From: Cognatilysobacter tabacisoli
GTDB taxonomy: Bacteria; Pseudomonadota; Gammaproteobacteria; Xanthomonadales; Xanthomonadaceae
DNA: 64,000 nt
Reading direction: 5' to 3'
Assembly: GCF_003586305.1 (NCBI RefSeq)
Contig: NZ_QXJI01000001.1
Coordinates: 434,001-498,000 of the forward strand
Of the stretch, positions 37,019 to 42,907 are shown piece by piece (the stretch's first letter is position 1; every line of letters starts with the position of its first letter). The notes beneath the pieces were generated by a model. It was not told the DNA's origin and made no database searches. It saw only the letters and a program-made list of their open reading frames with translations. The position numbers and the translations under genes are program-made.

Positions 37019-37102
37019 CGCGCACAGGTTGACCGGCCGGGGGACGCAGGCGCGTTGGCCCTGCAGACGGGCTGCCCCCGGCCCGAGCTCCGGAGCGTCG
37101 CC

Positions 37103-38419
37103 ATGGCCATGACCCGTCGCGGGTTCCTCGCTGCACCGCCCGCGCTGGCCGCGATGGCGCTGATGCCGTCGCCGCTGCTGGCCGCCGTCGCCGCGCAGAC
37201 GCCGGCGCTGCCGGACCTGTCCGACTGGGAGGCGGTCCGCGCCCAGTTCACGCTCGATCCGGCCTACATGCACTTCGCCAGCTTCTTCATCGCCAGCCAT
37301 CCGGCGCCGGTGCGCGACGCGATCGAGGGCTACCGGCGCGCGATCGACGCCAATCCGTTCCTGGTGATCGAGCGCGGGCTGTTCGAGGACGAGGCCCACA
37401 ACGTCCCGCTGCAGGTTCAGACCGAAATCGCCGACTACCTGGGTGGACGCGCGGCGGACGTGTGCCTGACGCCGAACACCACCACCGGCCTGGCGCTGGT
37501 CTACCACGGCCTGCCGCTGACGCCGGGCGACGAGGTGCTGTGCACGACGCACGACCACTATTCGCACCACGAATCGATCCGTCTGGCCACCGAGCGCGCC
37601 GGCGCGAGCATGCGCAAGATCCCGCTGTTCACCGACGCGGCGACCGCCAGCACCGATTCGCTCGTCGACGCGCTGCTAGCCGGCATCGGGCCGAAGACGC
37701 GCGTGGTCGGCCTCACCTGGGTGCACTCGGCCAGCGGCATCCGCCTGCCGATCCGCGAGCTGGCCGCCGCGCTGCGCGCGCGCCGCGGCCCGCCGCTGCT
37801 GCTGGTCGTCGACGGCGTGCATGGGCTGGGCAGCACCGACGAAACGGTGGCCGAGCTGGGCTGCGACTACTTCTGCGCCGGCACTCACAAGTGGATGTTC
37901 GCGCCGCGCGGCACCGGGCTTGTATGGGCGAACGCCGAAAACTGGGCACGGCTGAGCCCGACGGTGCCGAGCTTCAGCGACTTCGACCAGTACGACGCTT
38001 GGGAGAAGGGCACTGCGCCGGCGTCGCCGACCAACGCCAACCGCGTGAGCCCCGGCGGCTTCGTCGCGTACGACCACCAGTGGGCCACCGCGGCCGCGTT
38101 CCGCATGCACCGGCAGATGGGCAGGGCGCGCGTGGCCGCGCGCATCCGCGCCCTCAACGACCAGTGCAAGGCCGGGCTGGCCGAGAACCGCAAGGTCAAG
38201 CTGCACACGCCGATGCCGGGCGAACTGTCCGCGGGCCTGGTTGCGTTCGAAGTCGAAGGGCTGAGCCCGGCGCAGGTCGTCAAGCAGCTGCTGGCACGCA
38301 ACATCATTGCCAGCACCAGCCCGTACGCGGTGACCTACGCGCGCTTGGCGCCAAGCCTGGTCAACACGCCGGAGCAGGTCGAACGCGCCGTGCGCGCCGT
38401 GCGCGAAGTATCGGGCTAG
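37103..38419 (+). CDS. Tat-exported class V aminotransferase-fold PLP enzyme
   Basis: A 438-residue protein, GGAG eight bases before ATG 37103. The N-terminus AMTRRGFLAAPP is a twin-arginine signal, so the folded cofactor-bearing protein should be exported. The core is isopenicillin-N-epimerase/CefD-like: PNTTTGLALVYHGL, THDHYSHHESI, PLLLVVDGVHGLG with Asp237, and Lys263 in GTHKWMFAPRGTG as the Schiff-base residue. Possible roles are racemase, desulfurase-like or lyase; no substrate can be given. Confidence 0.87.
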   Translation: MAMTRRGFLAAPPALAAMALMPSPLLAAVAAQTPALPDLSDWEAVRAQFTLDPAYMHFASFFIASHPAPVRDAIEGYRRAIDANPFLVIERGLFEDEAHNVPLQVQTEIADYLGGRAADVCLTPNTTTGLALVYHGLPLTPGDEVLCTTHDHYSHHESIRLATERAGASMRKIPLFTDAATASTDSLVDALLAGIGPKTRVVGLTWVHSASGIRLPIRELAAALRARRGPPLLLVVDGVHGLGSTDETVAELGCDYFCAGTHKWMFAPRGTGLVWANAENWARLSPTVPSFSDFDQYDAWEKGTAPASPTNANRVSPGGFVAYDHQWATAAAFRMHRQMGRARVAARIRALNDQCKAGLAENRKVKLHTPMPGELSAGLVAFEVEGLSPAQVVKQLLARNIIASTSPYAVTYARLAPSLVNTPEQVERAVRAVREVSG

Positions 38420-40438: not shown

Positions 40439-42907
40439 TTGACCACGGAGCGGTTGTCCCTCCGCCGCGGGCTGAGCCTCGTCGGCATCCTCGTCAGTGC
40501 GTTGCTGTTCGGCCTGTACGCCCGCGGTGGCATGGCGTGGCCGTTGGGTTTCGTCGCGCTGGTGCCATGGCTGCTGGGGCTCGATCGCGGCGTCAGCTGG
40601 CGCGCGGCGCTGTGGAGCGGCGTGCTGATGAGCGTCGCGTTCGCCGCGGCGGTGTTCCACTGGTTCGGCGCGGCGATCGGCGCGTACACCGGCGTGGGCG
40701 TGATTCCGGCCACCGTCGCGCTTCTGGTGCTGGCGCCGCTGCTGCAGCTGCCGTTCGTCGCGTTCGCGCTGGTGCGCCATGCGGTCGGTGTTCGCCACGG
40801 CCCGGTGCTGCGCGCGCTGGCCGCGGCCTCGGCGTGGGTGGCGTGCGAGTGGGCGGTGCCGAAGCTGCTCGGCGACACGCTCGGGCACGGGCTGTACCCG
40901 TCGTCTGTGCTGCGCCAGGCGGCCGATCTCGGCGGCGCGGCCGGTCTGACCTTTCTCCTGCTGCTGGTCAACGAGGCGGTGGCCGCGGCGCTCGGCCGGC
41001 GCGAGCGCGGCTGGCGCGCGGCCGCGCAGCCGATGGCGCTGGCCGTGGCGGTGGTTGCCGGCGCGGCGGCGTACGGCTTCATGCGGCTGTCGGGGCTGCA
41101 GGCGCCGCCGTCCGACGATGCGGCGACGCTGCGCGTGGCGATGGTGCAGGCGAGCATCACCGACTACGAGCGGCGCCGGCGCGAGCAGGGCGCGTACGCC
41201 GTCGTGCGGCACGTGCTGGACACGCACTACGCGCTGTCGTGGTCGGCCATCCGCGACCACGGTGCCGACGTGCTGCTGTGGTCGGAGACGGTCTATCCGA
41301 CCACGTTCGGCAGTCCGCGCAGCGAAGACGGCGCCGCGCTCGACGCCGAAATCCAGGGCTTCGTCGACGCGGCCGGCGTGCCGCTGGTGTTCGGCACGTA
41401 CGACCGCGACGCCGACGGCGAGTACAACGCGGCCACGTTCCTCGAGCCCGGACGCGGCCGGCTCGGCATCTACCGCAAGACCCACCCGTTTCCGCTGACC
41501 GAGTTCGTGCCGGCGTGGCTCGACGGCCCGTGGCTGCGCCGCGCGCTGCCGTGGGCCGGCACGTGGCGCGCCGGCGACGGCGCGCGCGTGCTGCCGCTGC
41601 GCAGCGCCGACGGGCGCGAGGTCAACGTGGTCCCGCTGATCTGCCTCGACGACGTGCGCACCGGCCTGGCCATCGACGGCGCGCGCCTCGGTGCGCAGGC
41701 GATCGTCGGGATGTCGAACGACTCGTGGTTCACGGGCTATCCGCTCGGCGCGCGACTGCACCTGTCAGTGGCCGCGTTCCGCAGCATCGAGACGCGGCTG
41801 CCGCAGGTGCGCGTCACCACCAACGGCCTGAGCGCGATCATCGACGACACCGGCCAGGTGCTGGCCAGCACCGGGATGGGCGACCAGGCGGTGCTGACCG
41901 CGTTCGTCAGCGCGCGCGATCCGGCGCCGACGCTGATGGTGCGCTGGGGCGACTGGGTCGGGCGGGCCGGCGCGGGGTTCCTGCTCGCGCTGGCGATCGT
42001 CGCCGGGTGGCGCGCGCTCGGTCGCCGCGCGGTGACGGTCGACGCACGCACCGAGGCGATGCTGCCGGTTACCGTCCTGCCGCGCGCGTGGCGCGCCGCG
42101 GCCGGCGCGCTGCGCGTCGTGGCCGGCGCCGGCCTGGCGTGGCTTGCCGCGGAGATGCTGCTGCGCGTCGGCTGGCAGGTGCAGTCGCTGTCGCAGCTTA
42201 GGGGGTTCGGCCTCGCCGTCGTGGCGCCGCTCGCGCTCGCGTGGGTGATCCGGCGCGCATTCGCGGGTCAGGCCCGCGCGGAAGGAGGCGCGCTCGTCCT
42301 CGACCAGCGCCGGCAGCGCATCGAGGTTCCGCTCGCCTCGATTGCCGCGTTGCAACCGTGGCGCGTGCCGCTGCCCGGCAGCGGCGTCGACCTGCAGCTG
42401 GCGTCCGGACGCCCGTGGAGCCGCGGCGTCGCCATCGACGATCCGCTGGCGCTGCAGCGGCTGCTTCGCGCCGGCGGCGCGCGCGCCGAGCTGCAGGGAC
42501 CGTTCGCCGCAGGCCTGGCCCGCGTCGCGCAGCTGCGCGCCGCCACCCGGCGACCGTGGCTCGACCATCCGCTGGTCAAGTTCATCGCCTTCCCGCTGCT
42601 GCCGGCGCTGGTCGCATTCCGCCTGCACCAGGTGATCGCGTTCGGCGGGCCGTTCGGCGAGTACTACAGCTACGGATTGGGCGCGTACCTGACCGGCCTG
42701 CTGATCTGGTGGGCGTCGTGGTCGATCGGCCTGATGCTGTTTGCCGCGGCGCTGCGCATCGGGATCGAAGCGGCCGCGGGACTGGCCGCGTGGCGGTCCC
42801 CTTCGCGCGCGCTGGCGCTGCGAGACGGACTGGAATGGCTGGGCCGGGCGGCGTACTACGTCGGCGTGCCGGCGTGGCTGGTGCTTCGGCTGGTCGCGGC
42901 GGGGTGA
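40439..42907 (+). CDS. Lnt-like apolipoprotein N-acyltransferase with extra C-terminal membrane domain
   Basis: An 822-residue protein with a TTG start at 40439, ACGGAG upstream. Residues 1-525 follow Lnt: several N-terminal helices, a nitrilase domain from about 228 and a closing helix near 508-525. The catalytic residues are visible: Glu283 (WSETVYPT), Lys347 (YRKTHPF), Glu355 (LTEFVP) and Cys402 (LICLDD). E. coli Lnt has Tyr-Glu after the Cys; here they are Leu-Asp. About 295 further residues (530-822) add a soluble segment and roughly four to five helices not found in Lnt (about 510 residues). It may be a specialised paralog rather than the housekeeping enzyme. Confidence 0.85.
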   Translation: MTTERLSLRRGLSLVGILVSALLFGLYARGGMAWPLGFVALVPWLLGLDRGVSWRAALWSGVLMSVAFAAAVFHWFGAAIGAYTGVGVIPATVALLVLAPLLQLPFVAFALVRHAVGVRHGPVLRALAAASAWVACEWAVPKLLGDTLGHGLYPSSVLRQAADLGGAAGLTFLLLLVNEAVAAALGRRERGWRAAAQPMALAVAVVAGAAAYGFMRLSGLQAPPSDDAATLRVAMVQASITDYERRRREQGAYAVVRHVLDTHYALSWSAIRDHGADVLLWSETVYPTTFGSPRSEDGAALDAEIQGFVDAAGVPLVFGTYDRDADGEYNAATFLEPGRGRLGIYRKTHPFPLTEFVPAWLDGPWLRRALPWAGTWRAGDGARVLPLRSADGREVNVVPLICLDDVRTGLAIDGARLGAQAIVGMSNDSWFTGYPLGARLHLSVAAFRSIETRLPQVRVTTNGLSAIIDDTGQVLASTGMGDQAVLTAFVSARDPAPTLMVRWGDWVGRAGAGFLLALAIVAGWRALGRRAVTVDARTEAMLPVTVLPRAWRAAAGALRVVAGAGLAWLAAEMLLRVGWQVQSLSQLRGFGLAVVAPLALAWVIRRAFAGQARAEGGALVLDQRRQRIEVPLASIAALQPWRVPLPGSGVDLQLASGRPWSRGVAIDDPLALQRLLRAGGARAELQGPFAAGLARVAQLRAATRRPWLDHPLVKFIAFPLLPALVAFRLHQVIAFGGPFGEYYSYGLGAYLTGLLIWWASWSIGLMLFAAALRIGIEAAAGLAAWRSPSRALALRDGLEWLGRAAYYVGVPAWLVLRLVAAG

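Follow-up and report, generated by a model that had tools for sequence, protein, structure and literature searches.

Fusion of Lnt, the apolipoprotein N-acyltransferase, to a further domain has precedent in mycobacteria, in which Rv2051c joins Lnt to the Ppm glycosyltransferase, a polyprenol-phosphate mannosyl transferase, and in which some lineages have a fused and others a free-standing Lnt domain, much like the long Lnt described here. The mycobacterial Lnt domain is mentioned in PMC3850990, the nitrilase superfamily is named in PMC8048626, and work on the YbbAP-TesA system of E. coli gives lysophospholipids, a product of Lnt, as a likely substrate (PMC12646458). The present analysis concerns a long Lnt-like transacylase gene in a 64,000-nucleotide stretch of the Cognatilysobacter tabacisoli genome (contig NZ_QXJI01000001.1, positions 434,001 to 498,000; hereafter the window). 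The gene lies at 40439..42907 on the + strand, encodes 822 residues from a TTG start, and was delineated from domain profiles, an AlphaFold2 model and its start context; upstream of it are genes for an SGNH hydrolase and for a protein designated P0003. What is new here is Lnt chemistry in a strictly conserved new gene setting, and we lean towards the view that the long Lnt, embedded in the membrane, is the catalytic part of a dedicated four-unit acyl-transfer machine with a non-lipoprotein acceptor. In the literature consulted, no paper was identifiable by its title or the start of its abstract as describing this trio of SGNH, P0003 and long Lnt.

The trio is strictly conserved. A GTDB scan returned 124 candidates, and in the best 80, taken as loci, the order SGNH - P0003 - long Lnt on one strand recurs 74 times, corresponding to every one of the 74 loci with room upstream; in the remaining six the Lnt gene begins less than 900 bases from a contig end. 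Median intergenic gaps within the trio are 21.5 and 23.5 bases. The 80 loci lie in Lysobacterales and Burkholderiales (for example Roseateles, Pelomonas, Rugamonas, Ramlibacter and Albitalea), together with two metagenome bins labelled Leptospirales (L129) and Spirochaetia (L097), which are perhaps misbinned. SGNH and P0003 were likewise upstream of the long Lnt in 14 of the 15 relatives first collected, the fifteenth having a locus cut by a contig end and its SGNH gene on another contig. Co-occurrence across whole genomes is equally tight: among 60 genomes (the window's own and 59 relatives) an SGNH profile matched 16, once each, and the identical 16 hold the long Lnt. Over 299 genomes of the order, the SGNH hydrolase and the C-terminal module of the long Lnt (above 100 bits) were each present in 28, with 27 shared and both exceptions cut by contig ends; dropped from these counts were module matches in G510, G586, G701 and G520 (below 23 bits) and in G499 (a 43-residue open frame), as well as a second, 60-residue SGNH match of G489. 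A survey sampling the class found the hydrolase in 2 of 369 genomes, namely the window's own and another member of its order. Among 300 genomes from the order to which G060 (Roseateles) belongs, five carried it, counting the centre genome. Other neighbouring open reading frames (ORFs) recur in at most 7 of the 80 loci, many of which are shortened by contig ends, and a wider operon was therefore rejected. The strict partnership and co-occurrence, with no further recurrent neighbour, thus define the trio as an isolated unit that is either whole or absent. A role in anti-phage defence was also considered and rejected as unsupported, there being no PADLOC match.

The 822-residue protein contains the Pfam domains LNT_N (residues 21-178, 61.6 bits) and CN_hydrolase (residues 232-489, 61.4 bits) and scores 197.3 bits against the TIGR00546 lnt model, for which the cut-off is 132.9. 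Its AlphaFold2 model, built from a 73-row alignment of the window protein and relatives, has a mean predicted local distance difference test score (pLDDT) of 91.9 over the whole chain and a predicted template modelling score (pTM) of 0.82, and superimposes on E. coli Lnt in a VIA comparison with a Z score of 35.2 at 3.0 Å over 475 residues spanning 2-524, with 22% identity. Of the features by which an Lnt is recognised, the LNT_N membrane domain followed by CN_hydrolase and the Lnt fold are accordingly present. On this alignment and on the invariant catalytic tetrad we assign residues 1-527 (40439..42019, + strand) to the Lnt domain, comprising the LNT_N membrane part and the nitrilase domain, with the codon for the catalytic Cys402 at 41642-41644 (+ strand). 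Among the window and 11 close relatives the start codon is TTG in 10 of 12 and ATG in two, and CGGAG precedes it in 11 of the 12 rows; this combination may keep translation of the membrane enzyme deliberately low. In tblastn searches, E. coli YbeX, YbeY and YbeZ had no match in the window or in any of 95 sequences from the trio neighbourhoods of relatives, some of which share a genome with a standard lnt locus, and ybeX adjoins the standard gene in all four standard lnt loci that were read (L196-L199). These results bear out most of what had been proposed from the DNA sequence alone: an Lnt-like acyltransferase at 40439-42907 with a TTG start, the retained tetrad and Leu-Asp after the Cys (profiles, fold and alignment all agree), the absence of the usual lnt neighbours, an extra C-terminal membrane module (here found to be conserved over approximately 530-822 and to form its own gene in three genomes), and an upstream pair consisting of a secreted SGNH hydrolase (PF00657, 26.6 bits) and a single-pass protein (221 residues, one transmembrane helix). 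The structure prediction that had been recommended also returned an Lnt fold over 2-524 and helices plus a beta domain in the module (mean pLDDT 91.9 over the entire chain).

The catalytic centre is fully retained, as Glu283, Lys347, Glu355 and Cys402 are invariant in all 73 aligned long forms, the window protein included. All 73 have Asp at position 404; at position 403, 64 have Leu, six Arg and three Phe. The Leu-Asp change highlighted originally therefore stands in part: the replacement of Glu by Asp is constant in the family, but Leu is not, being exchanged for Arg or Phe and giving way to Tyr in the split forms described below. Comparison of 39 rows (28 fused, three split and eight standard Lnts, with six other Lnt-like proteins excluded) showed that the residues numbered E267, K335, E343 and C387 in E. 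coli are retained in all 31 trio Lnts. The V339 column holds Phe and the E389 column Asp in 31 of 31; the S78 column is Ala in 28 of 28 fused forms, with Met in two split forms and a gap in the third; and the Y388 column in the fused forms holds Leu (22), Arg (four) or Phe (two), Tyr being retained in all three split forms. Further columns altered in the fused forms are G145 (Asp or Glu), G342 (Thr or Val) and F146 and W148, which are gaps. The set S78, V339, Y388 and E389 is thus altered in all 28 fused forms, and Y388 is its only member kept by the split forms. In E. coli Lnt, the acyl-enzyme still forms in the S78W, V339A, Y388W and E389A variants while rescue is abolished (PMC5500890), and the authors of that study consider these positions more likely to serve the second, acceptor step (PMC5500890). 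The residue pattern suggests that the long Lnt would load acyl chains as Lnt does and serve a different acceptor.

The C-terminal membrane module occupies residues 530-822 (42026..42904, + strand), as delimited by model elements, alignment of relatives and stand-alone ORFs in L180, L181 and L182. The region from approximately 530 to 822 is predicted with high confidence to consist of helices and a small beta domain, the latter with a trailing helix at residues 609-678 (42263..42472, + strand; six strands, then the helix). Modelled helices span 549-577 and 584-607 and, after the beta domain, 711-735, 747-786 and 788-821, which we read from the model as a topology of two transmembrane helices, the beta domain and three further transmembrane helices. 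By the order of its elements the beta domain would be PH-like, set among the transmembrane helices, and it presumably faces the cytoplasm. A Pfam scan of 45 module members, the domain search originally advised for this region, gave nothing reliable, only single-member matches at E 0.055 or worse; the matches listed in a fold search with the whole protein were Lnts and nitrilases, which says little about the module. Each of the 16 rows in the initial alignment (window and 15 relatives) has the module, and a random extension was ruled out by 15 invariant positions in 45 rows together with its occurrence as a separate gene in three genomes. These three, all of one genus (g44, family f9), carry a split form: a stand-alone module gene (291-308 residues) comes after the SGNH gene, and another gene, running towards the module gene, encodes the Lnt domain (525 and 535 residues in the two genomes where it is complete); P0003 precedes the Lnt gene in the one genome whose contig reaches it. 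Two split Lnts were scanned against TIGR00546 and scored 198.6 and 200.1 bits, and all three are 37-39% identical to the window Lnt domain, compared with 25-29% over shorter stretches for standard Lnts. Since module and Lnt domain are encoded apart but at a single locus, the module is a real component, and the split form says, at the level of gene arrangement, that the two would be functional parts acting together. The split-form SGNH genes (L180:6473-8302, L181:4003-5913 and L182:50-2056) encode 609-668 residues, and their C-terminal extension matches PKD at 14.8-25.5 bits, below the cut-off of 27.

The two partner genes precede the long Lnt on the same strand. The SGNH/GDSL hydrolase (P0002; 38639..39727, + strand, 362 residues), assigned from PF00657, its motifs and a 61-row alignment, scores 26.6 bits against PF00657 with a cut-off of 23.6, the sole SGNH family over cut-off. 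All blocks of the class were found, namely the catalytic Ser, the Gly and Asn oxyanion residues and the Asp-His pair, within the motifs GDS (53-55), GND (129-131) and DDVHP (304-308), and S55, N130, D304 and H307 are invariant in the 61 rows. D249, N251, D253 and D257 of an EF-hand-like loop, DSNGDGLVD (249-257), are equally invariant and may point to calcium dependence of the hydrolase. Mean column identity is 79%. The N-terminus bears a signal-like segment, judged by eye, and since there is no Cys before residue 128 it has no lipobox; the protein had no match in the plasmid collection. P0003 (39751..40416, + strand, 221 residues), known from an AlphaFold2 model and a 71-row alignment, comprises one predicted transmembrane helix (33-51), a low-confidence linker and a conserved domain at approximately 101-221 that is, on the model, presumably periplasmic. 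Overall pLDDT is 77.0 and pTM 0.47, with block means above 90 at residues 151-220, and the C-terminal half is conserved across the 71 rows. P0003 is devoid of Cys and hence not a lipoprotein. The window protein has no Pfam match (among 71 members of its family the best E is 0.014, in two of them, none reliable), no PDB sequence match below E 0.1 or fold match below E 0.001, and nothing reliable in PHROGs. Position and topology fit a lipase-specific foldase, but the modelled core has one strand pair and mostly loops, with no reliable family match. All parts of the trio are predicted to act at the membrane or in the periplasm. Directly upstream of the trio, at 37097-38419, lies a gene for a PvdN-like pyridoxal phosphate-dependent protein that scores 378.3 bits, with an equivalog cut-off of 650.

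The distribution of other lnt genes differs between the two orders. The window genome comprises 9 contigs and is rated 100% complete; the long form is its sole LNT_N match and its sole lnt over cut-off, and a second, standard gene was ruled out, as there is no second LNT_N and the other lnt match reaches 29.8 bits. The original prediction had held that lack of any other lnt, together with full complementation of an Lnt-depleted strain, would make this the ordinary Lnt; the genome indeed has no other lnt over cut-off, but the same is found in relatives that lack the long form, so this absence does not make the long form an ordinary Lnt. Of the 60 genomes, 41 have no lnt over cut-off, 16 have the long form and three a standard gene. 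A genome analysis of Xanthomonas campestris B100 reports finding no Lnt (PMC10368991), and Xanthomonas and Lysobacter share one order in the NCBI taxonomy. LolC/E over cut-off is single in 16 of 17 genomes tested, the window genome included, which is the number expected of LolF, and LolF systems have been reported alongside tolerance of lnt loss (PMC11784454). Taken together, the 41 genomes with no lnt over cut-off, the X. campestris report and the single LolC/E indicate that the lineage seems viable without Lnt, whether or not the long form is present. A search for lnt by genome covered 28 of the 80 loci. The ten Burkholderiales genomes searched, chosen from the 20 loci with that label, all have a standard lnt (255-316 bits) in addition to the long form (183-211 bits); in the other 18, which are Lysobacterales by name, nothing but the long form exceeds the cut-off. 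A weaker Lnt-like protein (59-88 bits) also occurs in the trio-bearing G033, G037 and G048. Such sub-cut-off proteins (approximately 480-535 residues, 59-89 bits) are found in some genomes, trio-bearing ones among them, with ORFs at L055:6475-7923, L192:7058-8584, L194:7219-8706, L195:7086-8573, L193:7087-8691 and L057:7756-9312; in L055 and L192 a TetR regulator ORF overlaps the start of the gene.

We assessed the ancestry of the long Lnt with a tree of 45 rows, a chosen subset comprising 28 of the 73 fused forms, three split forms, eight standard Lnts (seven from relatives and that of E. coli) and six other Lnt-like proteins. The eight standard Lnts fall to one side (support 100/99), the fused forms make up one group (100/99), and fused and split forms together also make up one group (99/98); deep placement is unsure, with several long branches and only eight standard rows. 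Eight Burkholderiales forms nest in Lysobacterales (100/100, in a set of nine with the Leptospirales-labelled bin L129), which suggests one transfer from Lysobacterales. In all four parts, the Burkholderiales forms are nearer to each other than to Lysobacterales forms.

From these data we picture the machine as having four units: the Lnt domain, the C-terminal module, the SGNH hydrolase and the anchored P0003. Given the invariant centre and the fold, Cys402 with Glu283, Lys347 and Glu355 would take a fatty acyl chain from phospholipid to form a thioester. The chain would then pass to an acceptor other than apolipoprotein, a step indicated by the acceptor-step changes, the partners and the coexistence with standard Lnt. 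The secreted SGNH hydrolase would most likely work on the lipid side, clearing leftover lysophospholipid, much as has been discussed for TesA (PMC12646458), or trimming the acylated product, while P0003 may tether or position it and the C-terminal module could keep the complex together in the membrane. More tentatively, and with slightly less assurance than we attach to the catalytic role, we propose that the four parts form an envelope machine that is inherited together, with its own secreted hydrolase and anchor and with the Lnt fold retooled to place phospholipid-derived fatty acid on a non-lipoprotein acceptor; it would have arisen in the largely Lnt-less Lysobacterales and passed once to Burkholderiales, to work there beside the standard Lnt. 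The specialised acylation system for an exported substrate envisaged in the original prediction thus gains ground in its first half, through the trio, its co-occurrence, the coexistence in Burkholderiales, the split form and the acceptor-step residues, whereas its second half, the exported substrate, stands as conjecture.

A number of observations weigh against a dedicated machine of this kind. The long form passes the curated lnt cut-off and an annotator would call it Lnt, and in Lysobacterales it is the sole lnt-like gene over cut-off, such that it could also acylate lipoproteins there. Among the residues, F416, also essential in E. coli, is retained in all 31 trio Lnts, W237 and R352 vary already among the eight standard Lnts, Glu to Asp at 389 is a conservative change, and the split form keeps Tyr at 388. 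Functional mycobacterial Lnts are reported to conserve only five of seven essential residues (PMC3850990). Moreover, of 80 positions that standard Lnts conserve, 39 differ in the fused clade, at which rate four changes out of four would have a probability of approximately 0.06, and the acceptor-step change is therefore mildly unusual and suggestive, not proof. As regards the unit, the trio is missing from G043, a fourth genome of genus g44. On the 3129-base metagenome contig of G485 (L184:20-1500), part of a module comes directly after P0003, without an intervening Lnt domain; a decayed copy or faulty assembly may be the cause. Distances between parts encoded by separate genes correlate moderately (Spearman 0.41-0.57), which fits joint inheritance and gives no sign of contact between the parts.

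The most obvious alternative, that this is the ordinary Lnt of the lineage, which N-acylates lipoproteins and whose extension and neighbours are lineage-typical extras, draws on its being the sole LNT_N match and sole lnt over cut-off in a genome rated 100% complete, on the full Lnt fold and catalytic tetrad and on a score over the equivalog cut-off. We nevertheless regard it as unlikely, because 41 of the 60 genomes have no lnt over cut-off and 44 have no long form, meaning that the long form is not required in the lineage, and because the single LolC/E seen in 16 of 17 genomes agrees with a pathway tolerating diacyl lipoproteins (PMC11784454). It is further countered by the standard lnt that stands alongside in each of the ten Burkholderiales genomes searched, by the constant SGNH and P0003 partners and by the altered acceptor-step positions.

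Two other possibilities, both of which we judge less probable still, concern the acceptor itself. The Lnt domain might be a phospholipase or thioesterase with water as its acceptor, which together with the SGNH hydrolase remodels or detoxifies membrane lipids. The nitrilase superfamily contains many hydrolases, and water as acceptor would be in keeping with the lost acceptor-site features; moreover, TesA, a periplasmic SGNH lysophospholipase, acts on membrane lipids together with a membrane complex (PMC12646458). Yet the transferase membrane part and tetrad are fully retained, and the changed positions are fixed to new residues (Phe at V339, Asp at E389) rather than relaxed. The acceptor might otherwise be a protein of the trio, with the long Lnt N-acylating the new N-terminus of SGNH, or a site in P0003, after signal-peptide removal to give a Cys-independent anchor. 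The usual substrate of Lnt is an exported protein, acylated at its N-terminus once the signal peptide has been cleaved (PMC8048626), the SGNH hydrolase was found only with the long Lnt in the 60 genomes, and its residues past the signal-like segment are highly conserved, with T29, Q32, N33, S35, W36 and T37 invariant in 61 rows; with the hydrolase conserved throughout, however, its N-terminus does not stand out.

A dedicated machine with a non-lipoprotein acceptor, if true, would mean that Lnt chemistry has a second, dedicated role in the bacterial envelope. Because they exceed the curated cut-off, genes like the long form are likely annotated 'apolipoprotein N-acyltransferase', an annotation that would put Lnt in bacteria whose relatives are reportedly Lnt-less and would mask a conserved operon. 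Burkholderiales members hold both enzymes, so that the two functions could be told apart simply by deleting genes, and the split form is a natural supply of single parts.

Compared with the systems described to date, the long Lnt most resembles E. coli Lnt (TIGR00546; PDB 8b0k/5n6h), sharing its whole fold over 2-524, the Glu-Lys-Glu-Cys centre and the combination of membrane part and nitrilase domain. It differs in identity (approximately 22% in the structural alignment), in its separate clade, in the fused-form changes of Y388-E389 to Leu/Arg/Phe-Asp, V339F, G342T, S78A, G145D and loss of the F146 and W148 columns, and in having an extra 293-residue module and SGNH and P0003 partners with no ybeX or ybeY beside it. 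The trio hydrolase shares the GDS, GND and DxxH blocks of SGNH/GDSL hydrolases (PF00657, PF13472), but exceeds the cut-off of PF00657 only, has an EF-hand-like loop and in 60 genomes occurs only with the long Lnt. YbbAP-TesA of E. coli likewise couples a periplasmic SGNH (GDSL) lipid hydrolase to an inner-membrane complex (PMC12646458); it has an ATP-binding cassette transporter in place of the Lnt-fold enzyme and no P0003, and is likened here by role and not by SGNH kinship. Finally, the mycobacterial Lnt Rv2051c is a proven lipoprotein acyltransferase, in contrast to which the long Lnt has as its partners a transmembrane module with a beta domain and an SGNH hydrolase.

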